Source: Denitrovibrio acetiphilus DSM 12809
GTDB lineage: Bacteria > Chrysiogenota > Deferribacteres > Deferribacterales > Geovibrionaceae
Length of the DNA stretch: 64,000 nucleotides
Assembly (NCBI RefSeq): GCF_000025725.1
Contig: NC_013943.1
Location: 434,001 to 498,000, forward strand
Direction of reading: 5' to 3'
Every line of letters starts with the position of its first letter. Position 1 is the stretch's first letter. A program made the position numbers and the translations under genes. The notes beneath the pieces are model-generated. The model was not told where the DNA came from, did no database searches, and saw only the letters and a program-made list of their open reading frames with translations. Below, one piece after another: positions 1 through 38,660 of this stretch.

Positions 1-465
1 TGGTATTATGAAATGCAGGATCTCGGGTTTAACTACAGGATAACAGATATTCAGTGCGCTCTGGGGCTTTCTCAGATGAAGAGGCTTGACGGGTTTGTTA
101 GCCGTCGCCGTGAAATAGCAAAGATGTACGAAGATATATTTTCTCAGAGAGGTATCTTCACACCCCTTTACAATTTCGACAAGAACAGTTCTTATCACCT
201 TTATGTTGTACAGGTTCCTTTTGATAATCTGCCCGTCACTAAGGCAGAATTTTTTAATGAGATGCGTGACTGCGGTGTGGGGCTTCAGCTTCATTACATC
301 CCCGTTCCTATGCTGCCTTACTATGCTGATAAAGGGTACAATATGCGAAATCTGCATGAAGCGGAGCTGTATTATGCCAGAAGCTTTTCTATCCCCATGT
401 ACCCCGCAATGGAAGATAAAGATGTCCGTTTTGTGGCGGACTGTCTGTACAAGTCAATTAAGTAA
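1..465 (+). CDS. DegT/DnrJ/EryC1-family sugar aminotransferase, PseC-like (5' truncated by window)
   Basis: The reading frame is open from the first base and ends at TAA 463-465, so only the C-terminal ~154 residues are present. The stretch beginning WYYEMQDLGFNYRITDIQCA and the following QMKRLDGFVSRRREIA helix are typical of PLP-dependent DegT/DnrJ/EryC1 aminotransferases, and closest in feel to PseC, which transaminates a UDP-4-keto-6-deoxy-AltNAc intermediate in pseudaminic acid synthesis. The lysine that binds PLP would lie upstream of the window. The nonulosonate-type genes at 26408-29016 fit a shared role in flagellar or surface sugar synthesis, but the two loci are 26 kb apart, so the link is inferred. 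The exact substrate cannot be told from this fragment. Confidence 0.8.
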   Translation, partial: WYYEMQDLGFNYRITDIQCALGLSQMKRLDGFVSRRREIAKMYEDIFSQRGIFTPLYNFDKNSSYHLYVVQVPFDNLPVTKAEFFNEMRDCGVGLQLHYIPVPMLPYYADKGYNMRNLHEAELYYARSFSIPMYPAMEDKDVRFVADCLYKSIK

Positions 466-11238: not shown

Positions 11239-11245
11239 TTTTCAC

Positions 11246-13285: not shown

Positions 13286-13321
13286 TTATTATTTCTCCAG
13301 TGTCACAACTTTAATAAGTAA

Positions 13322-13356
13322 TCTCTTGCCATTACGAACGGAGTGAAGCAGTTTTT
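13322..13356. repeat. REP-like element (degenerate)
   Basis: The 148-nt gap between two GH57 genes contains a segment CATTACGAACGGAGTGAAGC-like in sequence, related to the elements at 2648 and 42533. A second feature of the same gap is a hairpin with arms ACAGGG and CCCTGT around 13385-13415, lacking a good T run. Confidence 0.4.
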
Positions 13357-13433
13357 CCAGTTAAATCAGTATTTCTGACTTTCACAGGGTTACTTCGTAA
13401 ATTAGTGTGCCCTGTAATTATTTTTGCTCCGGT

Positions 13434-15512: not shown

Positions 15513-15517
15513 ATTTG

Positions 15518-18010
15518 CTACTCCTGCAGCCAGTTGTTGATCTTGTCCTTATACTCAGTATGTATCTGTTTGTAGTCTTTTTCAGTGGCTGCTTCCACGT
15601 ACAGGTGGATATTTGCTGTGTACTGGTCGGGAACCATATGCACCCAGCCTTTGTTTTTGAATATTATCTTTATACCATCAAGGAATGACGCCTCTTTGTC
15701 CATGGCGTCTTCGCTCATCTTGCGCATAAGAAAGCCTTTTGCCTCCAGAGGGCAGTTGATGACAGTGTGGCTGTAATGGTAATCGGGGATGGTTTTCAGC
15801 ACATCGCTCAGTTCAACGTTTTGTCTGGCGAGCATTTCGAGTATTTTTATAGAGCTGTACATGGCGTCAGCGTTAGAGCTGTTCTCCATGAAAGTATAGT
15901 TCCTTGTCATCTCTCCGGTGAAATAGAAATTACGGAGATAGTCGGCTTTTATACCTGTCAGCTTCCCCCGCACTATGTCGATATTCATTAGCTGGTCGTC
16001 CAGCACAGTCGGAGCATATGCCGGCAGATAGACCTTAACTTTTGATTTGACTGTGATGTCTATCAGCTTGAGGATTAGCATCAGAGCCATATCCTCTTTC
16101 ATGATCTCGCCTGATTCTGTGATTATGCCGAGGCGTTCACCGTGGGGATATATGACAAATCCAAGTTTTGATTCAGTTACTTTTACGATTTCGCTGACTT
16201 CGTTAAATGAATGCTCAATCTGGTGCATCGTACGTGAAAGTTTCTTCTCGTCACGATAGGCATTCAGCACAACAGCATCCACACCGATCTTGTTCAGAAG
16301 CTCCGGATAAACGGCGTCTGTAGTTCCGTTGAGAAGGTCGACAACTATTTTTGATCTACGTGCTTTTATTAGGGGTATATCGATATTTTTCAGCACACCC
16401 TCTTTGTAAAACTCCCCGACCATGAGCTGGTCGTATATTTCGCCTATGTCGTCGTGGGTTGCTCTGCGGAAATTTTCACGGAAGAATATGCGTTCAACAT
16501 TCTTTTCAAGACCTGCATCGATGGGCATCCCTGTTTCGTTGTAGAAAAGTATTTCTGTATTGGTGGGGTCAGTCTGGCACTGACGGAGATAAACGCCGGC
16601 AACTTCACCAAACATGCTGAGTTTATGTCTCATAACAGGCAAAGGTGTCATGTGGAGTTCTGTAACATTTACACCTGTGGAGAGCAAACCTCCGAGAAAG
16701 CATCTTTTGAGCATTCTGGAAGCCTTGTCATAATCTCTGGACATCAGAACACGGCATCCTGCCGGAAGCTGACTGCCGAGCGCAGCGCCGAGCTTCGCCG
16801 CCAGATCAGGGGAAAGCTCTACGTTTGTTCTGGCGGAGACTTTACCGCCTTCGAAGATGGATTTTTTCCACTTGTCACCCCATATAAGGTTTGAGCTGAC
16901 AATGGAGCCTTCTTCTATCTGCTTCTCAGGCCAGACCATAATATCCTTTTCAAAGATAACCTGCTGTCCGACATCTGTTGATTCTGCTATGATAACCCCG
17001 TGTTCGGCTTTAACGCCGCTGCCTATTTTGACATTGTTGCAAAGGACAGTGTTGACGAGATCACAGCTTTTGCCAATTATAACTTCTTTCCAGAGGATAG
17101 AGTTTTCCACTGTTGATTTTTCGCCGATGGAACACCCTCCGGAGAGTACAGAATTTTTTATTGTTACATCTTTTTCTATTACACAGCCGTCACCCAGAAC
17201 AACAAGACCTTCTATTTTAGCGGTTTTGTGTATCTTTACATCTTTCCCTTTGTAAACTGTTCCTTCAGAAAGTTTTTCCTGAATTCCTTCAAGGGGGAGT
17301 GTGACGTCTTCATTAAGTATGTCGAGTAGTGCTGCCCTGTATGAGTCAGGATTACCGACGTCTCTCCAGTAGCCTTTTGCATTATAGCCGAAGAGGTCTA
17401 TGCCGCTCGCCATAAGCTTAGGAAATAGGTCTTTTGAAAAGTCAAAATTGCTGTCTTCGGGGATATATTCGAGTATTTCCGGCTCAAAGACATAAATTCC
17501 TGTATTTATAGTATCGCTGAAGACTTCTCCCCAGCCTGGTTTCTCGAGGAACCTGATAATTTTGCTTTCTTTATCTGTGATAACCACGCCAAACTGGAGC
17601 GGGTCGGGTACAGATGTCAGAGTTATCGTTGCCTTAGAATTTTTAACATCGTGAAATCCGAGTATCTCCTGAAAAGAGAAGTCGGATATAAGGTCTCCTG
17701 AAACTATTATGAAGCGTTCATCAAGGTATTTCTGGGCTTTTTTTACTGCTCCTGCTGTCCCATAGTCGTCATCCGGCAGTACATAGTGTATTTTGATCCC
17801 TTTGCTGCTGCCGTCGCCGAAGTAGTTTTTGATGACTTCCGGCTTGAAGTAAAGCAGAATAACTATCTCCACTATTCCTGCTTCTTTCAGAGCGTCAATT
17901 ATATACTCCATCATAGGTTTGTTCATAACCGGTATCATGGGCTTGGGCATGCTGGATGTGAGCGGCTGGATCCTTGTTCCGAAGCCGCCAGCCATAACGA
18001 CTGCTTTCAT
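15518..18010 (-). CDS. NDP-sugar pyrophosphorylase / hexapeptide / degenerate phosphomutase fusion
   Basis: 830 residues. Residues 1-235 are a nucleotidyltransferase with AGGFGTRIQPLTSSMPKPM and VSGD, so sugar-1-phosphate activation should be intact. Residues 250-375 are left-handed beta-helix hexapeptide repeats. Residues 385-830 have the phosphomannomutase/phosphoglucomutase fold but lack all catalytic signatures: the phosphoserine loop (T-x-SHNP) reads QCQTDPTNT near 478-485, the metal loop (DxDxDR) reads YPHGER near 621-626, and the C-terminal phosphate loop reads HMVPDQYTAN. It is annotated in databases as mannose-1-phosphate guanylyltransferase/phosphomannomutase. Here it heads the glucan cluster and could make the NDP-glucose used by GlgA; that is an inference. 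Confidence 0.85.
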   Translation of the reverse strand: MKAVVMAGGFGTRIQPLTSSMPKPMIPVMNKPMMEYIIDALKEAGIVEIVILLYFKPEVIKNYFGDGSSKGIKIHYVLPDDDYGTAGAVKKAQKYLDERFIIVSGDLISDFSFQEILGFHDVKNSKATITLTSVPDPLQFGVVITDKESKIIRFLEKPGWGEVFSDTINTGIYVFEPEILEYIPEDSNFDFSKDLFPKLMASGIDLFGYNAKGYWRDVGNPDSYRAALLDILNEDVTLPLEGIQEKLSEGTVYKGKDVKIHKTAKIEGLVVLGDGCVIEKDVTIKNSVLSGGCSIGEKSTVENSILWKEVIIGKSCDLVNTVLCNNVKIGSGVKAEHGVIIAESTDVGQQVIFEKDIMVWPEKQIEEGSIVSSNLIWGDKWKKSIFEGGKVSARTNVELSPDLAAKLGAALGSQLPAGCRVLMSRDYDKASRMLKRCFLGGLLSTGVNVTELHMTPLPVMRHKLSMFGEVAGVYLRQCQTDPTNTEILFYNETGMPIDAGLEKNVERIFFRENFRRATHDDIGEIYDQLMVGEFYKEGVLKNIDIPLIKARRSKIVVDLLNGTTDAVYPELLNKIGVDAVVLNAYRDEKKLSRTMHQIEHSFNEVSEIVKVTESKLGFVIYPHGERLGIITESGEIMKEDMALMLILKLIDITVKSKVKVYLPAYAPTVLDDQLMNIDIVRGKLTGIKADYLRNFYFTGEMTRNYTFMENSSNADAMYSSIKILEMLARQNVELSDVLKTIPDYHYSHTVINCPLEAKGFLMRKMSEDAMDKEASFLDGIKIIFKNKGWVHMVPDQYTANIHLYVEAATEKDYKQIHTEYKDKINNWLQE

Positions 18011-25240: not shown

Positions 25241-26421
25241 ACCTGGTACCGAAAGAGGAACTGCAAAGCCGTCTTACTGCTTTCAGAAAGAAAATGGATG
25301 AGCATAATAATGGGTGGAATGTTGCCTTTATTATCGATAAGGTCAATCTCTTTTACCTGACAGGCACTCAGCAGAATGGGATACTGGTTATCCCCAGAAG
25401 CTCCGATGCTGTCTTTTTTGTACGCAGAAGCTACCAAAGGGCAGAGCTTGAGTCGAATTTTGAAAAGATTGTTAAAATCAACTCGTTCAGGGACATTCCG
25501 CCTGTTACCGGTAGTTTAGGGAAGACAGTTTATATCGAAAAAGAATTTGTTCCTATTGCCCATTTTGAACGTATTAATAAGTATTTTGGATTTGAGGAGA
25601 TCAGGTCATGTGATTTTGCGCTTTCTGCCGCACGGGCAGTAAAGACTAAGTATGAACTTGATATTATGCGGCATGCCGGCATCCTCCACAGGAAGACGCT
25701 TGAGGAGTATGTCCCCACGGTTATCAGAGAAGGGATAAACGAAAAGGAACTCGCAGCAGATATTATGCATTACATGCTGGATAACGGACATCACGGTGTA
25801 ACCAGAATAGCTATGTTTAACACAGAGCTTTTTCTGGGGCAGGTTTGTTTCGGTGAAAATTCAATGTATTACAACACTTTTGACGGTCCCGGCGGTATAA
25901 AAGGCATCTCTCCTGCTGTTCCTCTTTTCGGCAACGAGAACAGGAAACTTGCCTGTGATGAGCTGGTGTTTGTAGACATCGGATTCGGTATTGAAGGCTA
26001 TCATACGGACAAAACACAGGTCTATGCCTTCGGTACATTGCCTGACGAGGTCTATGAGTATCAACTGAGATGTGTGGATATTCTTGATGCCACTGTCAGC
26101 AGGCTGAAACCAGGTGCAATACCATCAAAGATATATGAAGATGTGCTTTCTGAGTATGATGAAGAATTTCTTGAGTATTTCATGGGAGTAGGGGACGAGC
26201 GTGTTAAATTTCTGGGGCATGGTGTCGGACTTGTAATAGACGAATATCCTGTTATCGCTAAGGGGTTTGACCTGCCACTTGAGGAGCATATGGTGCTTGC
26301 TGTTGAGCCCAAACGGGGCATCCCTGGTGTGGGGCTGGTTGGGCTTGAAAATACATATATTGTCACGGATAAAGGCGGTGTGAGTCTTACCGGTGACAAC
26401 AGGGATATCATTCAGATCTGA
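25237..26421 (+). CDS. M24-family metallopeptidase (Xaa-Pro aminopeptidase-like)
   Basis: 394 residues starting at TTG 25237, which has GGAGGAG eight bases upstream inside the end of rpoS. The N-terminal creatinase-like domain (1-130) is followed by the pita-bread catalytic domain. Metal ligands are recognisable: two aspartates in [19 protein letters not shown], the histidine in [14 protein letters not shown], and glutamates in [20 protein letters not shown]. It probably removes N-terminal residues before proline. It is convergent with the spsF-like gene and the two overlap by 14 nt. Confidence 0.9.
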
Positions 26422-27253
26422 GTTTTTGCCTGATAATATCAGAAGCGGTGTAAAGTTCCTGTAGATCAAGGACTTTTACGGCCTGCTTTAACTCGTCCTG
26501 TATGTTCTCAAACTTGACCTTATTCTGCACATTTGCATTTATTTCATAGAGCCACGGTTTTGACCTGAAAAGCTCTACAATGGACTCATTGCCGAAATAA
26601 TTGTCTTTTTCGTAAAGCATGTCATAAACAGCGCACAAAAGCGTATAGTCCTCTTTATTATCAAGGGTTATTCTGATATCTTCCCCCCCTGTTAATGCTT
26701 CAGGTATATATGAACCTATTTTAAACTTTTCAGGTCGCCCTGTGATGTATGGGCTGACGTGTTCCATTTCATATTTCAGATCGGCGTTTCTGTCTGCCTC
26801 TTTTAATGCGGTAAATCTAATCACTTCTGCGTCCAGACCGTGGGCATAGACTCTTGGTCTGTTGTTTGAAATGTAATCAAATGTGCCGTCATTTTTATAA
26901 AATTCCACCATTGTGTCAATAATATCTGGGTCTATACATGGGCAGTCACTGGTTACACGAACCACAATATCTGCTCCAAAGGCTTCCGCGGTTTTTGTGT
27001 ACCTGTTCAGAACATTATCCTGACTTCCTCTGTAGAAATCCATTCCTGTGTTTGTACAGAGATCTGCGATCTGATCGTCAATTTCTTCATCGGTGGTGGC
27101 AACAACGACATAGTCCAGCTGTCTGCATTTTTTAAGCCTTCTTATAACCTGTTCCAGAACGGTGATTCCGCTTCCAAGGGGCAGGTCTCTGAGTATTTTG
27201 CCGGGCAGTCTGGTTGACGCTGTGCGCCCCTGAACGATTGCTGCAGTTTTCAT
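26408..27253 (-). CDS. SpsF-type cytidylyltransferase/glycosyltransferase-family protein
   Basis: 281 residues of the GT-A nucleotidyltransferase fold (MKTAAIVQGRTASTRLPGKI, VVATTDEEIDD, VVRVTSDCPCIDPDIID). SpsF-type proteins resemble CMP-Kdo and CMP-nonulosonate synthetases and are found in spore-coat and flagellar sugar clusters. Directly downstream of a NeuB-type synthase and a PIG-L deacetylase, it is the natural candidate to activate the resulting nonulosonic acid with CMP. A second function as a glycosyltransferase cannot be excluded. AGGG lies seven bases before the ATG. Confidence 0.78.
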   Translation of the reverse strand: MKTAAIVQGRTASTRLPGKILRDLPLGSGITVLEQVIRRLKKCRQLDYVVVATTDEEIDDQIADLCTNTGMDFYRGSQDNVLNRYTKTAEAFGADIVVRVTSDCPCIDPDIIDTMVEFYKNDGTFDYISNNRPRVYAHGLDAEVIRFTALKEADRNADLKYEMEHVSPYITGRPEKFKIGSYIPEALTGGEDIRITLDNKEDYTLLCAVYDMLYEKDNYFGNESIVELFRSKPWLYEINANVQNKVKFENIQDELKQAVKVLDLQELYTASDIIRQKLRSE

Positions 27254-27263
27254 TTTAAGCCCT

Positions 27264-27962
27264 TTAGTAAATTTCGCGCATCAGCATAAAAGCCTCTGCA
27301 TATTCTTTGCCGCACTGTCTGCCTCGCATCTGCGCAAGTATTTTTATGGATTCCATAGACCTTGGGTAAGGGTCAGGCTGGATTTCAGATTTGTAAAAGG
27401 CGAAAGCGTCAAGCTTGGTTTGCATTGAATCAGCAATATCGACAAAAACATTTGGTCTGAAAGCGTTTTCATGGAAAGTCGGATTTGCGAATTCTGTACT
27501 TGACTGAACTTCGTAGGCATAAAGCCTTATGCAGTTTTCATCAGGCAGTGGTCTGAAAGCTGTCAGAGTTGCCTTGTTAGTGATAAAATGGTCGTTATTG
27601 AGATCCCCGCCGTGCTGGGTGAAGACCGTGTCCGGCTTAAAATCCCTCTTAACCTGCTCGAGTATTTTTATTATATCCAGCAGTGCCACAGTGTCAAATC
27701 TGTTGTCCGACAGACCTCCGAAGATAACTTCATTTATGCCGGCAGTATGTCCTGCCTGTTTTGCCTGAGTTTTCAGGTCTGACAAAGTCTTATCTATTTC
27801 AGCCTCAGGTACGGTACCGGATCTTGACTGGGCGCCTTCACCCAGTATGATTACTTTTACATCTGTTCCGTTTTTGGCAAGTAATTTTGCTGTACCGCCG
27901 CACCCGAGTATCTCGTCGTCTGGGTGGGCAGCGACTATCAACGTTTTTTTGCTGTTAAACAT
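27264..27962 (-). CDS. PIG-L/LmbE family N-acetyl deacetylase
   Basis: 232 residues. The zinc motif is AAHPDDEILGCGG near the start, with the second site in FTQHGGDLNNDHF. Family members remove N-acetyl groups from N-acetylglucosamine-type sugars. The gene starts inside the last 8 nt of the NeuB-type synthase gene and ends 10 nt before the SpsF-type gene, so all three form one operon. It most likely deacetylates a precursor or product of the nonulosonate pathway so that a different acyl group can be added; the GNAT genes nearby (36608) fit such a scheme, but this is inference. Confidence 0.85.
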   Translation of the reverse strand: MFNSKKTLIVAAHPDDEILGCGGTAKLLAKNGTDVKVIILGEGAQSRSGTVPEAEIDKTLSDLKTQAKQAGHTAGINEVIFGGLSDNRFDTVALLDIIKILEQVKRDFKPDTVFTQHGGDLNNDHFITNKATLTAFRPLPDENCIRLYAYEVQSSTEFANPTFHENAFRPNVFVDIADSMQTKLDAFAFYKSEIQPDPYPRSMESIKILAQMRGRQCGKEYAEAFMLMREIY

Positions 27963-29016
27963 TGTCGAAGTCCTCCGGGCTGAGGCGTGTGGTTTTGGGG
28001 ATATCTTTATTGAGTTTCTTACCTAATATTCTGTCCCTTTCATAGGGTTTCATGCCGTAGCCAGGGCGTTTATATGTTATATCTGACAGTGTCAGGACTG
28101 TTCCTTTTTTAAGGTCATGTGCGCTTACAATGCTTCTGCGGTATTCATCGCGCCCCTTTGCCTCAATATCAGCGTAATGGAGACCCTCTTTCCCCATGAT
28201 TGTTTCAGCCTTCCGTATCATTTGTACCATTTTTGCAAATTCTGCAGGGTCAGTGGAAAACCTGTGGTCAGGTCCCGGGAGGTTCTTATCCAGAGTAAAG
28301 TGTTTTTCAACCATACATGCTCCAGCAGCAGCCGCCAGCATAGGAGCTTCCCACCCTTCGGTATGATCAGAAAAGCCCACCGGATAACCATAAGTGTCCC
28401 TGAGAGCCTTTATCCTGTTCAGGTTGCACTGGTCGAATGGGGTGGGGTATGAGCTGACACAGTGCAGTATCACAAGCTCTTCGCACCCTGCATTTTTAAA
28501 TATACTGACTGCGTTATCTATTTCGTCATATGATGCCATGCCTGTTGAAAGGATAACCGGAAGTCTTTTGGATGCCATATGATTTAGCAGGTCGATATTT
28601 ATAAGGTTTTCGCTTGCGGTTTTTAAAACGCTTACGCCTATTTCTTCAACAAGATCAACAGCGTTGATGTCCGCCACGGATGTCATGAAGTCTGCGCCTT
28701 TGCTTTCTGCGTATTTTTTCAGGATTATGTGCCATTCGTATGGAAGCTCCAGCCTTTTGAACATTTCATATTGGGACTCGGTTACAGTTGTGCCGTCAGA
28801 CTGGGTGTATGTGTACATGAGGTCTCTGTCTGCTACTACTTCATCTGAACTGAATGTCTGAAATTTCACAGCATCAGCTCCGGCTGATATGGCAGCATCG
28901 ATTGTTTTTTTAGCAAGAACCATATCGCCGTTAAAATTAACACCTATTTCCGCAATTACATAACACGGGGAGCCAACTTTCCTGCCGTTTATGTATACGT
29001 CATTAATCTTCTGCAT
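27955..29016 (-). CDS. NeuB-family nonulosonic acid synthase (sialic/legionaminic/pseudaminic type)
   Basis: 353 residues from ATG 29016, which has GGAG six bases upstream; an ATG four codons earlier lacks one. The NeuB TIM barrel is clear (YVIAEIGVNFNGD, DAVKFQTFSSDEV, LSTGMASYDEID, PVGFSDHTEGWEAPMLAAAAG, VEKHFTLDKNLPGPDH), followed by a C-terminal SAF antifreeze-like domain (RSIVSAHDLKKGTVL). It condenses phosphoenolpyruvate with a six-carbon N-acetyl sugar to make a nine-carbon acid. Whether the product is sialic, legionaminic or pseudaminic acid cannot be decided. Its downstream flagellin and Maf neighbours point to flagellin glycosylation. Confidence 0.88.
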   Translation of the reverse strand: MQKINDVYINGRKVGSPCYVIAEIGVNFNGDMVLAKKTIDAAISAGADAVKFQTFSSDEVVADRDLMYTYTQSDGTTVTESQYEMFKRLELPYEWHIILKKYAESKGADFMTSVADINAVDLVEEIGVSVLKTASENLINIDLLNHMASKRLPVILSTGMASYDEIDNAVSIFKNAGCEELVILHCVSSYPTPFDQCNLNRIKALRDTYGYPVGFSDHTEGWEAPMLAAAAGACMVEKHFTLDKNLPGPDHRFSTDPAEFAKMVQMIRKAETIMGKEGLHYADIEAKGRDEYRRSIVSAHDLKKGTVLTLSDITYKRPGYGMKPYERDRILGKKLNKDIPKTTRLSPEDFDNV

Positions 29017-29105
29017 GGGGTTCTCCATTTGAAAGAAAATATCAAGTTTGCATCTCTATTGATGATATCTCAAAAAGTTTATATTTAACAGTGCAAAACA
29101 ATCAA

Positions 29106-29192: not shown

Positions 29193-31574
29193 TTAACCAA
29201 GAAGTGAAAGAACCTGCTGTGGAAGGCTGTTAGCTTGTGAAAGCATAGATGTTCCAGCCTGATTCAGAATCTGGTTTCTTGTGAACTCTGTCATTTCTGA
29301 AGCAAAGTCAAGATCGCGGATTCTGGATTCAGATGCAGTCAGGTTTTCTCTTTGAGTGTCCAGACCTGTGATTGTATACTCAAGTCTGTTAATCTGAGCA
29401 CCTATTGTAGCTCTGATACTAGAGATGGATTCCAGTGCGGAGTCGATCTTAGTAATAGAGGCCTGAGCAAGATCCTGGTCAACCATCACTATGTCGTCAA
29501 GACCGAGTGAGCTTGTGTTAACTTGCGGGATAGCTGTAGAGATTGTCTGACCAGCATTAGCACCGATCTGCATTTCCATAGCGTTGTCAACAACGTGGAG
29601 TTTAACGTCTGTTGATGAACCGGCTGCGAAAGTCATCTCTTTTTTAGCGTCATCCCAGCTAATGTCAAGACCTGTACTGCCGTCGATTTCAACGTTAACG
29701 CCTTTGATCACGTCTCTGAGGACGTAGTCGTTAACTTCATCAGAACCTATTGACTCACCAGTGTGTGCGTCAGTAACGTCAACAGTTACAGCACTGTTTG
29801 TGCCTTCCTGTATAGCCTTGAGGTTAAGACCGTCTATAAGTGACTGGTCGCCGATGAATGAAAGCTGGCTGTCAGAGCCGAGTTTTGCTGTCTGGATAAC
29901 AAATGTACCCTGAACAGCTTCATTTGTGTAGTCTGACTCTGTTGAAACATAATTAACAAGGTTGTTGTTAACATCTGATGTGGTGCTGCTTGTTGAAGAG
30001 TCAGCGCCCATTCCGAGAGTGTCAACGAGAGCGTTAGTCAGTTTTGTCTCGAAGTCAGATATTGTGTCGTCACCTTCAAGATAGATAGTAGCAGATGTAC
30101 CGTTACCATATACTGTGAGTGACTGAGTCTGATTGTTGTCGAAGATACTTCCACCGTCCTCTGTAGCGAACTGAGAAAGATCGCTGAGTTTGGTAGATGA
30201 TGTAGCGGCCTCACCGGCACCACGCACAGCGATATCTATCCTGGTATCGCCTGTTGTAGAACCGTTGGATATTGCAACACCTGTGTTCTCTTTAAAGCTG
30301 AGAGTAAGGCTGCCGACATTCAGATTACCAGTGTTTTCATCAAGTGAAGCGTGGTAAACATTAGTATCTTTATAGTCAATTACTGTATCGCCGTTGTCTG
30401 CTTCAGTGAGTGCGTCAAAGGCGATTGTTGGGCCGGCTTGTCCGTCAGGACCACCGCTAAGCCTGATTGTACCACCACCGGATTCTGTTGCGCTGGAGCT
30501 TACGTCTGGTGTAACTGCGATAAGCATTTTGTCACCGGACTGAACGCTTCCGCTTGCTCCGAGAGAAATAGAAGCACTTACGCTTACTGTTGTTCCACCG
30601 AAGTCAAGATCGTTTGCTATAGCTATTGAGCCTGCACCTGCTGCTGTGAGTGTTACAGCTGTCCAGTCAGAAGCTTCACCTGTTTTAGCGTTGATATAGC
30701 GGTATTTGATGTCTACATCTTCGTCAGTATCGCCTTCAACTGCTTCATCAAACATTACTTCAAGGTAACCTGCTGTGAAGCTTGATGTTCCTACAGAAGC
30801 TGCTGTAACAGCGAAAGAGCTGCCGGACTGAGCATATGTTGAAAGAACATCTGCTGTGGCTGCTGCTGTGGAGCCTGAAGAACCGACTGCAAGTGTGTAT
30901 ACACCAGAGCCTGTTGTTGATGTAAGGCTTTTCGCATCTGAAACAGATGCAAGGTTAGATGTGTTTGTAGTGTAAACTGTTGTGATTTCTGCTGCGATTG
31001 AGTCTTCGCTCAGGGACATAACGTTTGTTTTGTACACATAGTTTTCGCCAGGATCAACAGTAATATTAAGGTTATAGTTACCTTCGGCAACTTCGCCTGT
31101 GATGATTGTATTGATCTTGTCTGACTGATCTGTAGATGTGAGAGCAGTAGAGTCACCGTTAAGAAGTTTCTTTGTGTTGAACTCAGTTGAAGAAGCAACA
31201 CGGTTGATCTCTTCTTTAAGCTGATCAACTTCTTTCTGGATTTCTTGACGGTCGTTTGTTGTGTACACGCCGTTACCAGCTTGTACAGCAAGTTCTCTCA
31301 TTCTTTGTGTCATGTCCTGAATGGTAGAAAGACCACCTTCAGCAGTTTGCAGCAGTGAAATACCGTCCTGGGCGTTCATGGAAGCTCTTTGAAGACCGGA
31401 AATCTGACCACGCAGTTTCTCTGATATTGCAAGACCTGATGCGTCGTCAGCTGCACTGTTGATTCGGAGACCGCTTGAAAGTCTTTCAAGGTTTTTGGAC
31501 ATATCTGAGCCTGTTTGGCTAAGGTATCGCTGCGAAGTAAGCGCAGCAACGTTTGTGTAAATTGTCATTCCCAT
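29193..31574 (-). CDS. Flagellin, unusually long (793 residues)
   Basis: The main filament protein. The conserved D0/D1 N-terminus (IYTNVAALTSQRYLSQTG, LERLSSGLRINSAADDASGL) and C-terminus (ESRIRDLDFASEMTEF, MLSQANSLPQQVLSLLG) are intact. Between about 170 and 690 lies a large serine/threonine- and acid-rich, cysteine-free surface domain, making the protein about twice the length of many bacterial flagellins. Such exposed Ser/Thr are the usual O-glycosylation sites, and Maf- and nonulosonate-type genes flank the locus. GGAGG lies seven bases before the ATG. The 186-nt leader between the flaG terminator and the ATG has no obvious sigma-28 or sigma-54 element. Confidence 0.96.
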   Translation of the reverse strand: MGMTIYTNVAALTSQRYLSQTGSDMSKNLERLSSGLRINSAADDASGLAISEKLRGQISGLQRASMNAQDGISLLQTAEGGLSTIQDMTQRMRELAVQAGNGVYTTNDRQEIQKEVDQLKEEINRVASSTEFNTKKLLNGDSTALTSTDQSDKINTIITGEVAEGNYNLNITVDPGENYVYKTNVMSLSEDSIAAEITTVYTTNTSNLASVSDAKSLTSTTGSGVYTLAVGSSGSTAAATADVLSTYAQSGSSFAVTAASVGTSSFTAGYLEVMFDEAVEGDTDEDVDIKYRYINAKTGEASDWTAVTLTAAGAGSIAIANDLDFGGTTVSVSASISLGASGSVQSGDKMLIAVTPDVSSSATESGGGTIRLSGGPDGQAGPTIAFDALTEADNGDTVIDYKDTNVYHASLDENTGNLNVGSLTLSFKENTGVAISNGSTTGDTRIDIAVRGAGEAATSSTKLSDLSQFATEDGGSIFDNNQTQSLTVYGNGTSATIYLEGDDTISDFETKLTNALVDTLGMGADSSTSSTTSDVNNNLVNYVSTESDYTNEAVQGTFVIQTAKLGSDSQLSFIGDQSLIDGLNLKAIQEGTNSAVTVDVTDAHTGESIGSDEVNDYVLRDVIKGVNVEIDGSTGLDISWDDAKKEMTFAAGSSTDVKLHVVDNAMEMQIGANAGQTISTAIPQVNTSSLGLDDIVMVDQDLAQASITKIDSALESISSIRATIGAQINRLEYTITGLDTQRENLTASESRIRDLDFASEMTEFTRNQILNQAGTSMLSQANSLPQQVLSLLG

Positions 31575-31894: not shown

Positions 31895-32257
31895 CTATGA
31901 CGTACTGTCATACAGCAACCCTACCATCTCTTTGATGTTACGGGAAAGCCTTACAGCCTCTTCGTTAGGTATTTGCCTGATTACCTTTTTGTCGTCACTG
32001 TCGATAATCTTCACAACCACTTCGTTAATATCTTCTTCGATAGTGAATTCGCGCCTAACATTGAGCGATTGGAGAGCACTGTTGAGCTCTTTTACTGAAG
32101 CTTCCAGCTGTTCTGGCTTAACCTCTTCCTTTTCGGGTTGTTTTGCCGCATCTCTACTGCCTTCATTAACAGATTGAGTCCTGAGAGTCTCGTTACCTTG
32201 AGACGCACCGGAGTTATTACTGTTTATAACGGAAGTGACGCTGGTTGTTTCGTACAT
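31895..32257 (-). CDS. flaG: FlaG family flagellar protein
   Basis: 120 residues. A low-complexity polar N-terminus (1-45) precedes the conserved FlaG core (LQSLNVRREFTIEEDINEVVVKIIDSDDKKVIRQIPNEEAVRLS). FlaG proteins affect filament length or filament properties; their precise role is unsettled. It sits just upstream of flagellin on the same strand, with a sigma-28-like promoter about 100 nt before its ATG and its own terminator. Confidence 0.9.
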   Translation of the reverse strand: MYETTSVTSVINSNNSGASQGNETLRTQSVNEGSRDAAKQPEKEEVKPEQLEASVKELNSALQSLNVRREFTIEEDINEVVVKIIDSDDKKVIRQIPNEEAVRLSRNIKEMVGLLYDSTS

Positions 32258-32447: not shown

Positions 32448-32480
32448 TTTAAGGTAGGTACTGAAAAAACGGAGTTGCTG

Positions 32481-34382
32481 ATGTCTGTTGAAAAGAAGAA
32501 TTTTGATGCTCTTAAACTCAAATATCCCCAGCTGTTCGATAAGCTTTCTGCTATGAAACCAAGCGGAAGATATCAGGTGATTAATGCCGGAAACGGTAAA
32601 CACCTTAACCTTATCGACCATCAGCGAAAGGTTTTCTACTATGATAAATTCAGTCCGTACAGTCCTGTTGAAAAGGATATTATTGGCAGGCAGATAAAGA
32701 TACCTAATCTTGCGATTTTTCTGGGCTGCGGGCTATTTTACACAGCAAAGGCTTATCTGGATAATTATATAAACAAAACAGCCTCCGGCGAGAGCAGACT
32801 ATATATAATAGAAAAGGATATCGATTCATTCAGAACGGTGATCCAGTTTGTAGACATTTCTGCGCTTATCCTCCATGATGGGATCATCTTTTATGTAGAC
32901 ACAGACCCCCATTCGATAATGATAGACCTCAGTGCCAGATTCAAGCAGGGGGGGATAAAGGCATTTATTAAGGCGATGAACTTTATCGAAGACCTGAATT
33001 CTTTTACCGCTTATAAAGATTATTATATCAACTGCATAAGAGCTGTTAAGGAAGCGGCGAAAGATACTCTTATCTTTTTCGGAAATTCACCTCTGGATTC
33101 CCTTATCGGTATCGAAAACACCTTCCTTAATATTATGGAAATAATAGACAATCCCGGGGTTAAGGATTTAAAAGGGGTATTCAAAGGTAAGCCCGGAATA
33201 GTAGTCTCAACAGGACCTTCTCTTGAAAAGAACATACATCTTTTAAAAGGGCTGGAAAATAAAGCTGTGATATGTTCTCCCGATGCATCACTTCAGGTCA
33301 TGCGCAATCACGGCTTTAAACCCCATATGGTTACTTCGCTGGAGCGGGGGCCAGCCACAGCAAAACTCTTTGACTATATTACTCCTGAAGATACGGACGA
33401 TGTCTATTTTGCTGCGACACCCGTAATTCATCAGAATACCTACTCAAAATGGCATGGTAAAAAGATTATCGTTTACAGGAGTTTTGCAACGTTTGAATGG
33501 CTGGAGATAGAAAAAGGGACTCTGGACATAGGACCGTCAGCCGGTAATATGGCTTTTGAACTGCTGGATTACCTCGGGTGCAACCCTATCATACTGATCG
33601 GGCAGGATCTGGCTTTTGGTAAGGACGGAAACACACACGCAACAGGCAGCCGCTTCGGTAACAAAGAAGACAGACCCCACTTTAAAGATACATTGATGGT
33701 CGAGGGGAATTATCAGCCTCAGATACAGACTATGCGAATCTGGGAAAATTTCAGACGATATTTCGTGGCTGATATTTCGAAAACTTCAGCGACAGTTATA
33801 AATGCCACGGAGGGCGGTGCAAAAATACAGGGAACTCAGATCATGACCTTTCAGGAGGCTATCGATAAGTACATTGATGATGATGTGAATGCTCTTGATA
33901 TCATATCCGGTTCTCTGAATCAGCCGGATGAAAAAGAAAAACGTGAATATCTGGAAAAGACTCTGGAGAAAGTTAATACTGCTACAGATTTTACAAAAGA
34001 TGTTCAGCAGAAATTTTATTCCGCTGTCCTTATGTGTAATGAGTATTTCGATGTTATCTGGAAGAATTTTCAGGAAACAGGAGATTACGACGGCAAGAGG
34101 ACAAAAGAGATTCTCGACAGCACTTCAGACATTATGGCAGTGTGCAACTCTCAGGACTTTTACCATATCCTCATGCATTATGTTCAGTCTTATTATATTA
34201 AATCTGTTATGGATATATATGGTGTGAAGGCGAATGCAAAAGACGGACGTTCTGAACAGTATGAGGTGTTGCAGGTTGCTGCTGAATTTTTCGAAACGAT
34301 GCACGGGCTCATGTCGAAAATCCTTCCCATGTTCGAGCAACTGCAGAGGGTTCTCAAGGGCAGGCTTGAAAGCGGAGACTAG
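32481..34382 (+). CDS. Motility-associated glycosyltransferase, Maf family (DUF115)
   Basis: 633 residues from ATG 32481, six bases after GGAG (an upstream in-frame TTG at 32475 is less likely). The central DUF115 domain is clear: GKPGIVVSTGPSLEKNIHLL, VICSPDASLQVMRNHGFKPH, VTSLERG and GPSAGNMAFELLDYLGCNPI followed by LIGQDLAF. Maf proteins transfer nonulosonic acids onto serine or threonine of flagellin in the cytoplasm before export. Flanking flagellin, FlaG, NeuB-type and PIG-L genes make this role very likely. The stop is 3 nt from the convergent WbqC gene. Confidence 0.88.
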   Translation: MSVEKKNFDALKLKYPQLFDKLSAMKPSGRYQVINAGNGKHLNLIDHQRKVFYYDKFSPYSPVEKDIIGRQIKIPNLAIFLGCGLFYTAKAYLDNYINKTASGESRLYIIEKDIDSFRTVIQFVDISALILHDGIIFYVDTDPHSIMIDLSARFKQGGIKAFIKAMNFIEDLNSFTAYKDYYINCIRAVKEAAKDTLIFFGNSPLDSLIGIENTFLNIMEIIDNPGVKDLKGVFKGKPGIVVSTGPSLEKNIHLLKGLENKAVICSPDASLQVMRNHGFKPHMVTSLERGPATAKLFDYITPEDTDDVYFAATPVIHQNTYSKWHGKKIIVYRSFATFEWLEIEKGTLDIGPSAGNMAFELLDYLGCNPIILIGQDLAFGKDGNTHATGSRFGNKEDRPHFKDTLMVEGNYQPQIQTMRIWENFRRYFVADISKTSATVINATEGGAKIQGTQIMTFQEAIDKYIDDDVNALDIISGSLNQPDEKEKREYLEKTLEKVNTATDFTKDVQQKFYSAVLMCNEYFDVIWKNFQETGDYDGKRTKEILDSTSDIMAVCNSQDFYHILMHYVQSYYIKSVMDIYGVKANAKDGRSEQYEVLQVAAEFFETMHGLMSKILPMFEQLQRVLKGRLESGD

Positions 34383-34385
34383 CGG

Positions 34386-35126
34386 TTATAGAAGCTCACT
34401 TCTAAGCTGTGATTGTGTTATGTTTCCGCTCAGTAATATATCCATGCTGTCCGGTCCGTGGTTAAAGAGAAGGTCGGCAATCGTCATATAGGGCTCGAAG
34501 CCTTTGAATCTCTGCTGGTACTGTGGGTGAATATATTGCTGGAAATAGATTTTTTTTCTGTTCTCTGTGAATAATTCTTCCCTTACATAGTCCCGTCCGA
34601 GAGCACCGAATACTACAGCGTCACCGTTTAGTTTCATACAGTGGTCTAACACAAGCTCGTCTTTGACACCTTTAAACGGAACTTCACTCATCCTTATGAT
34701 TTCACGCTTAATCCCCAGCGCACCAGCAAAAAAGTTGAACTGTGCCCAGCATAGGTCAACAAGTTTTTCCCATTTTGTTTCTGTGTACATTTTTTCAAGA
34801 TTGCCGGCATAATCTTCAAAGTATTTTGATTTGCAGTAGTTTACTTCAATTGATTTCCAGTGCTTAGCCTGCCAGTAGTCTTTTGATTCAGGGTTCTGAT
34901 CTTTGATGATTATGTCGTTCAGCATCTTGGACCGGCTATTTTTCTGGTCAACAGGTACACTAAGCCATATCCAGCCGTCCGGTATGCGTATCTTGTTGCG
35001 GTTGTTGAAGTCGTTGTGAAGGTACTGCACCGTATCCATATAGACGAACGTATCGCACAGATAGAGCTTGTGAAAAAGCCCCAGCCACGGTAGATAAACC
35101 GCCTGATGTCCTGATATTATTTTCAT
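34386..35126 (-). CDS. WbqC-like family protein
   Basis: 246 residues with the WbqC signature MKIISGHQAVYLPWLGLFHKL, then DTVQYLHNDFNNRNKIR and WIWLSVPV. WbqC-like proteins occur in O-antigen and surface-sugar clusters; their chemistry is not well defined, although some are suggested to act in amino-sugar or acyl-sugar modification. It overlaps the amidohydrolase gene by 4 nt and is the last gene of the five-gene operon that begins at 38567. Confidence 0.85.
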   Translation of the reverse strand: MKIISGHQAVYLPWLGLFHKLYLCDTFVYMDTVQYLHNDFNNRNKIRIPDGWIWLSVPVDQKNSRSKMLNDIIIKDQNPESKDYWQAKHWKSIEVNYCKSKYFEDYAGNLEKMYTETKWEKLVDLCWAQFNFFAGALGIKREIIRMSEVPFKGVKDELVLDHCMKLNGDAVVFGALGRDYVREELFTENRKKIYFQQYIHPQYQQRFKGFEPYMTIADLLFNHGPDSMDILLSGNITQSQLRSELL

Positions 35127-35965
35127 ACAGACGCTCCGAAACCGAAAAGTCTTTCCGCTGTTTTGTACAGTATGTTCTCTTTGGCTGCGTCACTCATACC
35201 TGAATTCTGAATGTACCGGATCTGTGTGGATTGATCGTGGCAGTGATTAAACGGAAAATCTGTTCCGAATACTATGTTGCTGTTACATATCTCCGCAGCA
35301 AACTCTACGAATCTCATCGTTGATGATACTGAAGTTATATAAGTTACATTCTTTAGCATTTCTTTGATATGGGGGATTTCGGCATATAAACATACGAGTC
35401 CGCCCATATGCTGTGCAATTATTTTCAGATCAGGATTTGCAGCAGTAAAGCTGAAGAACCTTGATGGGGTATCGCCTGTCGCTGTCTGGGTCATGTGGTG
35501 TGTGTGAACCATCATAAACATATCTCTCGCTGTTACGGCATCCACAACAGGCTGAAGTTCAGCGTCGTTGATGTGCACCCCCTGCCATGTGGGGAGCAGT
35601 TCGATTCCTATGAAAGTGGATTCGTCAAGCTGTTCGATCTCTTTTGCAGCCTGCTTGATGTCTGAAAGGTTCGGAATGTAAAGCCCTTTGAACCTTCTGT
35701 CCGCCTTCACCAGCTCTTTTATGTAGTCGTTGTTCTCACGCTGGATGCCTGGATCAAGCCAGCTTAAACCCATGAGCAGTCCGTTTGCTATATTGTTTTT
35801 TCTCATGGAGCTGTCTAGAGCTTTGAACGACATCATGTCTCTGACTGCGTCAAAATCCTTATGCATATGAACAGCCTGCACTACAGGTTCTTCGCTGTAT
35901 TTTGCAAAAGATGCCTTACATGCTTCGGGGTGCAGGATGTGTATTTCGCTGTCTATTATCTTCAT
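35123..35965 (-). CDS. Amidohydrolase-2-like metal-dependent TIM-barrel protein
   Basis: 280 residues. The start MKIIDSEIHILHPEA carries the first metal motif (H8 in place of HxH, with a conserved D/E), MVHTHHMTQT the middle one, KIIAQHMGGLV the next histidine, and IVFGTDFPFNH the terminal aspartate typical of the amidohydrolase-2 family. It should hydrolyse or decarboxylate a small substrate in the cytoplasm. In this operon a glycan or amino-acid-derived building block is likely. The first HxH motif is incomplete (EIH), so metal binding may differ. The gene is one nucleotide from the methyltransferase stop. Confidence 0.75.
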   Translation of the reverse strand: MKIIDSEIHILHPEACKASFAKYSEEPVVQAVHMHKDFDAVRDMMSFKALDSSMRKNNIANGLLMGLSWLDPGIQRENNDYIKELVKADRRFKGLYIPNLSDIKQAAKEIEQLDESTFIGIELLPTWQGVHINDAELQPVVDAVTARDMFMMVHTHHMTQTATGDTPSRFFSFTAANPDLKIIAQHMGGLVCLYAEIPHIKEMLKNVTYITSVSSTMRFVEFAAEICNSNIVFGTDFPFNHCHDQSTQIRYIQNSGMSDAAKENILYKTAERLFGFGASV

Positions 35966-35966
35966 A

Positions 35967-36611
35967 TTAAATTTCCATGATAATATACATTGTGTGGGAC
36001 ATGTCTGTTTCAGTTTTTTCTCCGGTTTCGGGGTTGAATCCGCCGTAAGAAACCAGTTTTAATCCAGCTTCATTTCCAGCTTTAAAAATGTCTTCTATGT
36101 CAAACCAGCTGTGAGTGGTCTCCGGAGTTAGTCCTTTGCTGAACATCTCCCAGTTTATATTTTTCGTATCAACAAAGAGCTTTCCGCCACTGTTTAGGCA
36201 GTCCGCAGCTTTTTTAAAGAAGTCAGAGAGTTTCATATTGGTTTTCTGTAAAACACCGATGCATGTTATAAAATCATATTTTTCGCAGGTGAGGGCGAGA
36301 AAGTCACTTCTTATTAGCCTGACGTCTGGATTCGCTATCTTATCCGATGCATATTTAAGAAGCTCATCGGAGACATCTATCCCTGTGGCATTTACATGAG
36401 GGAACCTCTGAAGGAGCATTTTGATAAACCCTCCTGTGCCGCACCCCACATCCAGCACTTTTATACCGGATGATATGTTGAGCTCACTCAGGACAAAGCG
36501 GAAGCGGTTTTCCATCTTCTCCTGAGAACCCCATTTCACCTTTTCGTATTCTTTATCGCATCTGCTGGAGCAGTTATATTCGTTTATAATATCGTTAAGT
36601 TCATAGTTCAT
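35967..36611 (-). CDS. Class I SAM-dependent methyltransferase
   Basis: 214 residues from ATG 36611, chosen because it overlaps the GNAT stop as ATGA; a longer frame starts 15 nt earlier. The SAM-binding motif VLDVGCGTGGFIKML is canonical, followed by GIDVSDELLKYA and DFITCIGVLQ. It resembles small-molecule O- or N-methyltransferases. The acceptor is unknown; sugar or peptide methylation during glycan assembly is the likely use given the operon. Confidence 0.88.
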   Translation of the reverse strand: MNYELNDIINEYNCSSRCDKEYEKVKWGSQEKMENRFRFVLSELNISSGIKVLDVGCGTGGFIKMLLQRFPHVNATGIDVSDELLKYASDKIANPDVRLIRSDFLALTCEKYDFITCIGVLQKTNMKLSDFFKKAADCLNSGGKLFVDTKNINWEMFSKGLTPETTHSWFDIEDIFKAGNEAGLKLVSYGGFNPETGEKTETDMSHTMYIIMEI

Positions 36612-37441
36612 TGTATCTCTGTCCATCTGTGGAGTGTCATCAGGCTTGAAACAGCCGGCAGTTCGGCTTTGGCATATATCCTGTTGGCAGCGGTGTTTGT
36701 CACTTGAGTGCCTATCTCTACCATGTCGCAGTTTTTATGCATGTTCACCAGAAAGTCATTCAGAAGCATAGACCCCAGCCCATGACCTGCAAAGTCAGCC
36801 GATACGCCTATGAGCCAGAGGTAGCCGAGCTTCTGACCATTTTCGAGCTGTTCCGACATCCCTATGGTGAACCCAGCAGGAGTTCCGTCTATGTGTATTA
36901 CCCTGATATCCGCCTTCCCCATGAAATGTGCGAAGAGTGTTCTATAAAAATTATCTGCTGTTGCTCTGGAGATATTTGGGTCTTTATATATACGTGAGTA
37001 TGTGAACATCCCGGCAGCCATCTTTTCAACTGTGCCTGCGTCTTTCTGTTGCAGGCTGCTGATGCTTATCTCACCAGGAATAAGGGCTTTCTCCGGTGCT
37101 TTTTTACTGAGGTAGATATTCAGAACATCAGTGGTATAAAAACCAAGCTTCTGGGCTGTCTGCAATATAATGTGCGAATTCAGGTCACATCGGAAATCAA
37201 TGAACTGGACACCCGAGTCTTCCATTTGCATTACAACTTTGCCCAGCGATTCCGGCAGTCCGGCACCGTTGTCGCTACAGGAGCACATAGTTATTCTGGC
37301 TGATTTGATCCCCAGAATGTCAGTATCCCACTCAAGGTCTATTCCTGACGTTTCACTATTGTCATTCTTATATAAGTAGGGAGCTTTAGGCGCAGTTTTA
37401 TGTTGCAGGTTCAGATAATTTATCTGATAGTCACTGTGCAT
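36608..37441 (-). CDS. GNAT-family N-acetyltransferase (tandem-like, 277 residues)
   Basis: The C-terminal half carries a GNAT core (GVSADFAGHGLGSMLLNDFL acetyl-CoA loop and NTAANRIYAKAEL). The N-terminal half looks like a divergent second GNAT fold, as in WecD-type proteins. A transfer of an acyl group to an amino sugar is plausible, parallel to PseH in pseudaminic acid synthesis. It overlaps the radical SAM gene by 11 nt and the methyltransferase by 4 nt. The acyl donor and acceptor are not evident from sequence. Confidence 0.82.
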   Translation of the reverse strand: MHSDYQINYLNLQHKTAPKAPYLYKNDNSETSGIDLEWDTDILGIKSARITMCSCSDNGAGLPESLGKVVMQMEDSGVQFIDFRCDLNSHIILQTAQKLGFYTTDVLNIYLSKKAPEKALIPGEISISSLQQKDAGTVEKMAAGMFTYSRIYKDPNISRATADNFYRTLFAHFMGKADIRVIHIDGTPAGFTIGMSEQLENGQKLGYLWLIGVSADFAGHGLGSMLLNDFLVNMHKNCDMVEIGTQVTNTAANRIYAKAELPAVSSLMTLHRWTEIQ

Positions 37442-38567
37442 CTTTAAGTAATCCGTTCACTCTGTTCAGCTCGGAGCATACCTTTTCGTATTTTTCTGTG
37501 GCATCTTCTTTCCCTGCGCTGTACATGTTTTTTGCGTATACCTCGAACTGTCTTACGATATAGTCCGGTATGTTCTTCTTCTGGTTACGCAGGTCATAGT
37601 CAGGGAAATATCTCCCGTTGCAGTCGCTGCACAGAACCCCCTGGTCGTCTATCCATTTGAAGTCATTGTCGAGGTGGCACTGGCGGAATTTCTGGTATTT
37701 TTCTCCGTTCCAGATGTCGAAAAGGCTCTCTGTATTTGCATCCCCGACAACATGGGCTTCATTATAGTCGAGGGGGCAGGGGGAGACTGTCCCGTCCCAG
37801 TTCACTGTGATGTTTTCCCATGGGGTTTTGCATATCGGTTGGTTGCCTTTGTATTGTTCGTGCAGAGCCTGCATGTCTACCTCGTGCGAAACGGAAGATG
37901 AACCTGCTAGATTAAGTATACTGCTGTTGAAAGTCGTGTCCACAGGGAGAGACATAAAGTATTCGTTATATTCATCTTTATGTTCTTCTGTTTTCGAAAA
38001 CAGAACCATTGAAGCGCATATGAATGTGTTTCTGCCTGTTTCGTAGTTTCTCTTTATAAAGTAGAGAATATTTCTGAAAGTAGGTAGAAATTTATTGCCG
38101 ACACGGACACTTTCAAGAATCTCCTTGTCTATGGAATCAAAGGAGAAAACAACTCTGTCCAGCTTTAATTCCAGAAGTTTTTCGGTAATATCCTCAGTGA
38201 GTTTTGTGGCGTTAGTCAGCAGATTGACCCTTATCCCAGCTTCTTTCCCGTATCTGACCATGTCGAGTACCTGCGGGTGCAGAAGGGGTTCGCCGTGTAC
38301 GTTAAGAGATATTCGGGCAACTTTCCCTTTGATTTCATCAATAATTTTGCAGTAAAGCCCGAAATCCATAAAGCCCCGTTTCTTGGTGGTGATATTCATA
38401 TCACGCCCTGACTGACTGCAATGTATGCATTTCAGATTACAGGAGTTTGTAGGTTCTATGTGTACGTGTTCGGGAAAAATGCTGATTTTATTGGATGGAT
38501 TAAGGGCAAACTCATAAAAGTCGAGATATCTTACGAGCTGTTTTTTAAGAAGTTCCTGATAATTCAT
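37431..38567 (-). CDS. Radical SAM protein with SPASM domain
   Basis: 378 residues. The radical SAM cluster motif is CNLKCIHC (CxxxCxxC) in VHIEPTNSCNLKCIHCSQSG. The C-terminal SPASM-type cysteines lie in ICKTPWENITVNWDGTVSPC and GVLCSDCNGRYFPDYD. Such enzymes use SAM-derived radicals to modify peptides, sugars or small molecules. It is first in an operon of five tightly overlapping genes next to the flagellin locus. The family is broad and the reaction here is unknown. GGAGA lies upstream of the ATG. Confidence 0.88.
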   Translation of the reverse strand: MNYQELLKKQLVRYLDFYEFALNPSNKISIFPEHVHIEPTNSCNLKCIHCSQSGRDMNITTKKRGFMDFGLYCKIIDEIKGKVARISLNVHGEPLLHPQVLDMVRYGKEAGIRVNLLTNATKLTEDITEKLLELKLDRVVFSFDSIDKEILESVRVGNKFLPTFRNILYFIKRNYETGRNTFICASMVLFSKTEEHKDEYNEYFMSLPVDTTFNSSILNLAGSSSVSHEVDMQALHEQYKGNQPICKTPWENITVNWDGTVSPCPLDYNEAHVVGDANTESLFDIWNGEKYQKFRQCHLDNDFKWIDDQGVLCSDCNGRYFPDYDLRNQKKNIPDYIVRQFEVYAKNMYSAGKEDATEKYEKVCSELNRVNGLLKDAQ

Positions 38568-38638: not shown

Positions 38639-38660
38639 CCGGCGGGCAAGAACCCGCCGG
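38639..38660. terminator. Strong hairpin between argJ and the radical SAM operon
   Basis: CCGGCGGG (38639-38646) and CCCGCCGG (38653-38660) form a perfect 8-bp stem with a six-base loop. Neither side has a good T run. It may terminate argJ or stabilise an end. Confidence 0.45.

Follow-up and report, generated by a model that had tools for sequence, protein, structure and literature searches.

A candidate tailoring cassette for a pseudaminic-type nonulosonate pathway beside the flagellin locus of Denitrovibrio acetiphilus

The operon and its partner genes

The window analysed here is a stretch of 64,000 nucleotides from Denitrovibrio acetiphilus DSM 12809 (NC_013943.1, positions 434,001 to 498,000), and positions are those of the window unless another locus is named. 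At 34386-38567 it carries five intact open reading frames (ORFs), all on the minus strand and abutting one another, which encode a radical S-adenosylmethionine (SAM) enzyme (rSAM), a GNAT acyltransferase, a methyltransferase (MT), an amidohydrolase of the Amidohydro_2 family (AHyd) and a WbqC family protein. The operon probably represents the tailoring half of a CMP-nonulosonate pathway of the pseudaminic type, the product of which would most likely be attached to flagellin by a neighbouring Maf-type glycosyltransferase (nonulosonates, NulOs, are sialic-acid-like).

The rSAM and GNAT genes overlap by 11 nt, the AHyd and WbqC genes by 4 nt, and a 1-nt gap separates MT from AHyd. The GNAT/MT junction is a 4-nt ATGA overlap with an MT start at 36611, or a 19-nt overlap when MT is counted from its first ATG (36626); the homologous start in another locus (L022) suggests that 36611 is used. 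All five proteins scored above their Pfam cut-offs (Radical_SAM 61.6, SPASM 60.7, Acetyltransf_1 31.9, Methyltransf_25 62.9 and Amidohydro_2 81.5 bits), with WbqC matching PF08889 at 233 bits against a cut-off of 21.3. Base composition (43.6% versus 43.5% for the window) gave no sign of recent import, and promoter and terminator scans returned matches at chance level. A perfect 8-bp hairpin (CCGGCGGG-TTCTTG-CCCGCCGG) that lacks a T tract is located at 38639-38660, between argJ and the rSAM gene.

NeuB, PIG-L and CMP-transferase (CMPt) genes form a second operon on the opposite side of flagellin, with PseG-PseB-PseC some 27-30 kb upstream of this trio. The original prediction held that the five genes are one unit next to Maf, FlaG, flagellin and a NeuB operon, and coordinates, junctions, families and neighbours were all confirmed. 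It had also treated the five genes as a self-contained system, which was not supported: the unit additionally takes in NeuB-PIG-L-CMPt (26408-29028) and PseG-PseB-PseC.

PseB and PseC exceeded the cut-offs of their NCBIfam models (TIGR03589, 550 bits versus 407.75; TIGR03588, 449 bits versus 423.5). The window NeuB is a predicted NulO synthase of a subgroup other than PseI. Maf scored 220 bits against the NCBIfam PseD-like domain model, below the cut-off of 670, and its assignment to the Maf class follows from the MptE-like domain and the flagellin/FlaG context, both of which are present. There was no match to the NCBIfam PseH model, and the GNAT is WecD-like. Together PseB, PseC, the PseG-like protein, GNAT, NeuB and CMPt are predicted to provide the steps that a CMP-pseudaminic-type pathway requires, to which rSAM, MT, AHyd, WbqC and PIG-L would be additions. 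These assignments support a putative functional unit of about 11 genes plus Maf that would constitute a modified pseudaminic-type NulO pathway.

The CMP-pseudaminic acid pathway (PseB-C-H-G-I-F) with Maf transfer, as found in Campylobacter, Helicobacter, Aeromonas and Clostridium, shares PseB, PseC, a PseG-like protein, a NeuB-type synthase, CMPt and Maf with D. acetiphilus. Unlike that pathway, D. acetiphilus has a WecD-like GNAT in place of a recognisable PseH, possesses the additional PIG-L, MT, AHyd, WbqC and rSAM proteins, and has its genes split over three genome places. Elsewhere in the window (6470-18010), genes read by eye resemble glycoside hydrolase 57, glycogen synthase and sugar-nucleotide enzymes of glycogen/alpha-glucan metabolism.

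Table 1. Positions of the operon, its partner genes and the PseG-MT fusions of other loci
Feature	Position	Strand	Evidence
rSAM enzyme, twitch/SPASM-type C-terminal domain, 378 amino acids	37431..38567	-	Pfam, PDB sequence searches, alignment
GNAT acyltransferase, two-domain, WecD-like, 277 amino acids	36608..37441	-	Pfam, AlphaFold model and Foldseek
Class I SAM-dependent MT, subfamily occurring as a PseG fusion in three other loci	35967..36611 (or first ATG 36626)	-	Pfam, fusions
Amidohydro_2 (ACMSD/LigW-like) metal-dependent enzyme, 280 amino acids	35123..35965	-	Pfam, PDB profile search, co-occurrence
WbqC family protein PF08889, 246 amino acids, AHyd/MT-linked subtype	34386..35126	-	Pfam, tree, subtype residues, model
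Maf-type flagellin glycosyltransferase (MptE-like/DUF115)	32475..34382	+	PF01973, 147 bits; convergent with WbqC, 3-nt gap
FlaG	31895..32257	-	Pfam PF03646
Flagellin (FliC), likely glycan acceptor	29193..31574	-	ORF and flagellin sequence; orthologs adjoin Maf in relatives
NeuB/PseI-type nonulosonate synthase	27955..29028	-	Pfam, NCBIfam, tree
PIG-L family N-deacetylase	27264..27962	-	Pfam PF02585
CMP-sugar cytidylyltransferase (CTP_transf_3)	26408..27253	-	Pfam PF02348
PseC aminotransferase, 3' end	1..465	+	PseC start, PseB and PseG-like just upstream of the window (G000:C1:431288-434465)
PseG-MT fusion, L033	7340-9172
PseG-MT fusion, L023	6027-7691
PseG-MT fusion, L047	7424-9157

Recurrence and shared descent of the cassette

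A WbqC alignment was scanned against 84,980 genomes, the best 80 loci were kept, and their gene content was recorded within 10 kb. At least one of NeuB, PIG-L and CMPt was present in 76 of these loci (NeuB in 66, PIG-L in 67). AHyd and MT occurred in an identical set of seven loci (L022, L023, L024, L026, L028, L033 and L047) and never apart (Fisher p = 3e-10, for 80 loci that are not fully independent by descent), a recurrence that excludes chance. The hosts belong to Thermodesulfobacteriota, Pseudomonadota, Omnitrophota, Myxococcota and Bdellovibrionota, making six phyla when the window is counted; several are metagenome bins, L022 and L047 are isolates, and L023 probably comes from a single-cell genome (isolate code AG-907-J15). 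All seven loci hold NeuB and/or PIG-L. The gene set had been predicted to make an unusual substituent, perhaps for a glycan, and these NulO genes support a role in glycan synthesis and an unusually substituted sugar; the set does not occur mostly away from glycan genes.

In L033 (Omnitrophota) a single run reads PseB-PseC-PIGL-GNAT-[PseG-MT]-AHyd-WbqC-NeuB-CMPt-rSAM, L026 has AHyd-NeuB-WbqC-rSAM-GNAT-MT, and in L028 PseG, MT and AHyd follow one another directly. Near two of the loci are genes for B12-binding-type radical SAM proteins that appear to be homologous (L028:14369-15769 and L033:16007-17416). Searches with AHyd across three phyla (51, 395 and 384 genomes) recovered only four strong orthologs, each beside WbqC; the other matches, at about 145 bits or lower, were other amidohydrolases. 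Viral contigs scanned with single AHyd, WbqC and rSAM proteins yielded nothing useful (two short AHyd matches, L011 and L012).

WbqC also occurs in other NulO settings. Rhizobial plasmids carry WbqC homologs in clusters with rSAM, NeuB, CMPt, PseG and PIG-L, and NulO-type WbqC loci were seen in contigs whose bins were assigned to Patescibacteria groups, Nitrosopumilus and the cyanobacterium Richelia (L025, L027, L029, L030, L032, L055, L062, L063, L073). A DegT aminotransferase lies directly upstream of WbqC in 31 of the 80 loci, with a hexapeptide acyltransferase or formyltransferase nearby; this arrangement is a putative second, commoner NulO tailoring module. Substitution of AHyd/MT for the DegT and acyltransferase pair upstream of WbqC was not significant (p 0.15).

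The phylogenies point to common descent. WbqCs of six AHyd/MT loci and the window formed one clade in a 63-row tree (support 100/97; none of 500 shuffles was as low), marked by residues G6, M30, L36 and H162; L026 WbqC fell outside this alignment but was included in an 8-row tree. With eight rows each, the AHyd, MT and WbqC trees have in common a split between {window, L022, L023} and the rest, with moderate support for MT. The window NeuB, although encoded in a separate operon, grouped with the NeuBs of AHyd/MT loci (one change, support 93/75, 96% of bootstrap trees), and the two window operons are therefore tied together. PIG-L and CMPt similarity did not track the cassette. Taken together, the five genes and the window NeuB are shown, by sequence comparison, to behave as a co-inherited cassette.

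In L033, L023 and L047, which represent three phyla, one uninterrupted ORF joins a PseG-like N-terminal part to a C-terminal MT (TIGR03590, 150 bits in L033 and 104 in L047). Because of this fusion, we infer that MT would act at or near the PseG step. An alternative is that two independent pathways lie next to each other: the NeuB trio would serve a standard NulO route, and the five genes an unrelated one that makes a different substituent of an amino sugar, such as a dTDP- or GDP-sugar. This would account for the separate operons and for the genome's second WbqC gene (G000:C1:2961381-2963852; L103 8381-10852), which has a formyltransferase on one side and a DegT aminotransferase on the other, with a gene resembling GDP-mannose 4,6-dehydratase in the vicinity. 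However, the position of the window NeuB among NeuBs from inside AHyd/MT loci, the PseG-MT fusions connecting MT to the NulO route, and the occurrence of both sets in single clusters elsewhere make this arrangement quite improbable.

Properties of the individual enzymes

The rSAM protein contains the CxxxCxxC motif (C43/C47/C50) and four further invariant cysteines (C246, C264, C313 and C316). Its nearest solved relative in PDB sequence searches was BtrN, to which the four auxiliary cysteines align. BtrN is a two-electron alcohol dehydrogenase acting on an aminocyclitol (PMC9012708). This twitch rSAM dehydrogenase of butirosin synthesis resembles the window rSAM in its pattern of a single four-cysteine auxiliary cluster, whereas sequence identity is low and the pathway differs, leaving a dehydrogenase role for the window rSAM putative.

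Peptide maturation commonly involves SPASM rSAM enzymes together with acyl- and methyltransferases, and several peptide maturases were weakly matched by NCBIfam. It is nonetheless very improbable indeed that rSAM, GNAT and MT modify flagellin or a small precursor peptide in the manner of ribosomally synthesized and post-translationally modified peptides: no maturase cut-off was reached, the auxiliary cluster has four cysteines as in BtrN and falls short of the full SPASM set, and sugar enzymes are the gene neighbours in other loci. Moreover, the operon leader holds ORFs of only 22 and 30 codons on the operon strand, with no convincing precursor-peptide gene, and the overlapping genes leave no room for one inside the operon. 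Modification of the flagellin protein itself, which the original prediction had allowed for, was not supported.

The GNAT model (predicted local distance difference test, pLDDT, 87) best matched WecD (2fs5) in Foldseek, with an E of 4.5e-14, and could be a candidate for the absent N-acylation (PseH) step. WecD, a dTDP-fucosamine N-acetyltransferase, has the same two-domain GNAT fold; the two proteins are only 17% identical, and the substrate of the window GNAT would be a UDP-amino sugar or a free amino-hexose.

For AHyd, the nearest solved relatives by PDB profile search include ACMSD, 5-carboxyvanillate and gamma-resorcylate decarboxylases and oxalomesaconate hydratase, which places it in the same amidohydrolase subgroup. 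The window protein retains its metal ligands (E7, H9, two later histidines and D236); in contrast to the ACMSD-type enzymes, the ligands are not fully conserved in the NulO-linked group. The hydrolase step of the original prediction stands as to family (Amidohydro_2), while hydrolysis as the reaction is uncertain, since the solved relatives include decarboxylases and a hydratase. In L023 (Pelagibacteraceae; 7688-8539), AHyd has lost most of these ligands, yet its gene is kept between PseG-MT and WbqC.

WbqC was modelled with high confidence (pLDDT 97.4), yet it had no sequence relative in the PDB and no Foldseek match under E 0.001. Weak matches to class I tRNA synthetases and cytidylyltransferases (probability at most 0.35) were not relied on. 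No paper describing WbqC function was found in the open-access literature.

A proposed pathway and its target

The UDP-4-amino-6-deoxy precursor is shown, from model scores, to lie within the predicted capacity of PseB and PseC. The WecD-like GNAT would then perform the PseH-type N-acylation, and the PseG-linked MT would add a methyl group to the amino-hexose, or to the substituent on it, at about the point of UDP release. PIG-L would strip an N-acetyl group, WbqC would put on a replacement amide substituent, and AHyd may trim this substituent or its precursor by decarboxylation or hydrolysis. The BtrN-like rSAM could oxidise or otherwise remodel a sugar carbon. Since NeuB groups with the cassette, these changes would probably be made before NeuB condenses the hexose with phosphoenolpyruvate; the tree is suggestive, though no proof, of a NeuB substrate hexose that has already been modified. 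The product would then be activated with CMP and transferred to flagellin by Maf.

Several observations weigh against this pathway. The PseG-like protein scored 77 bits with TIGR03590, under the cut-off of 153.55, and the window NeuB fell below both the PseI model (310 versus 340.25) and NeuB_NnaB (366 versus 399.65). The cytidylyltransferase was recognised by Pfam as CTP_transf_3, with no PseF match and with KdsB-like models below cut-off. Support for the NeuB clade is moderate by the Shimodaira-Hasegawa-like approximate likelihood ratio test (75). Only three of the seven AHyd/MT loci carry a window-type GNAT and only three a window-type rSAM, and the AHyd metal ligands E7/H9 of the window are H/Y in L028 and L033, with most ligands lost in L023. 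Finally, flagellin or Maf was found within 10 kb in none of the seven.

This last result fits a pathway of the same kind whose modified sugar is bound for lipopolysaccharide, capsule or another surface glycan, with the nearness of Maf and flagellin being incidental; NulOs are frequent in surface polysaccharides. We consider such a destination rather unlikely, as the Maf-FlaG-flagellin block of D. acetiphilus has one of the two gene sets on either side, and another genus of the family (G020, G022) has a complete six-gene NulO cluster, PseB-NeuB-formyltransferase-PseG-CMPt-PseC, beside the same Maf. Flagellin is probably the target, on the basis of context in D. acetiphilus, where Maf and flagellin adjoin the operon; only this context supports the predicted link to a flagellin glycan.

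Maf is kept in 11 of 12 genomes of the family. In two congeners (G018, G019), flagellin, Maf and the genes on either side are present, and both cassettes are absent at the Maf locus. Because these congeners lack the cassettes and another genus carries a formyl-type NulO cluster, the Maf flank is a variable NulO site in the family, at which D. acetiphilus holds a different set. A second NeuB of the D. acetiphilus genome (G000:C1:640317-641282), which clusters with the typical NeuB of the family, lies with a formyltransferase in a transposase-rich region (G000:C1:639600-641320; L102 8623-10318). The formyltransferase shares 45% and the NeuB 52% identity with the family type, and both are closest to the Maf-side NulO cluster of another genus; the pair is perhaps a displaced ancestral set.

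Methylated N-substituents are made by the Leg5AmNMe7Ac (PtmG/PtmH) and C. botulinum Leg5GluNMe7Ac routes (PMC13317340). These resemble the present system in yielding a flagellin NulO with an altered, methylated N-substituent and in having an MT among the NulO genes. They differ in that no PtmG-type amidotransferase was identified in D. acetiphilus (no direct sequence comparison with PtmG/PtmH was made) and in that AHyd, WbqC and rSAM are not reported there. The original prediction knew of no described pathway with this gene set; this agrees with the open-access literature, where no description was found, although such a claim cannot be proved. On present sequences, what is new would be a NulO pathway of known kind carrying an undescribed tailoring cassette. 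A bolder proposal, to which we give slightly less than an even chance, is an undescribed NulO class in which the hexose is remodelled before NeuB by rSAM, MT, an ACMSD-like AHyd and WbqC, with WbqC being a new enzyme class for amino-sugar substituents and the cassette having spread horizontally and been swapped into the D. acetiphilus flagellin glycosylation locus.

Both flagellar assembly and surface recognition are under the control of nonulosonic acids, whose diversity has been learned mainly from chemistry and less from genes. The cassette predicts a new NulO from sequence and would bring rSAM and amidohydrolase enzymes into NulO synthesis. The PseG-MT fusions offer a way to test in vitro the order in which the steps occur, and the widespread WbqC family gains a pathway context through the NulO genes that surround nearly all of its closest loci.

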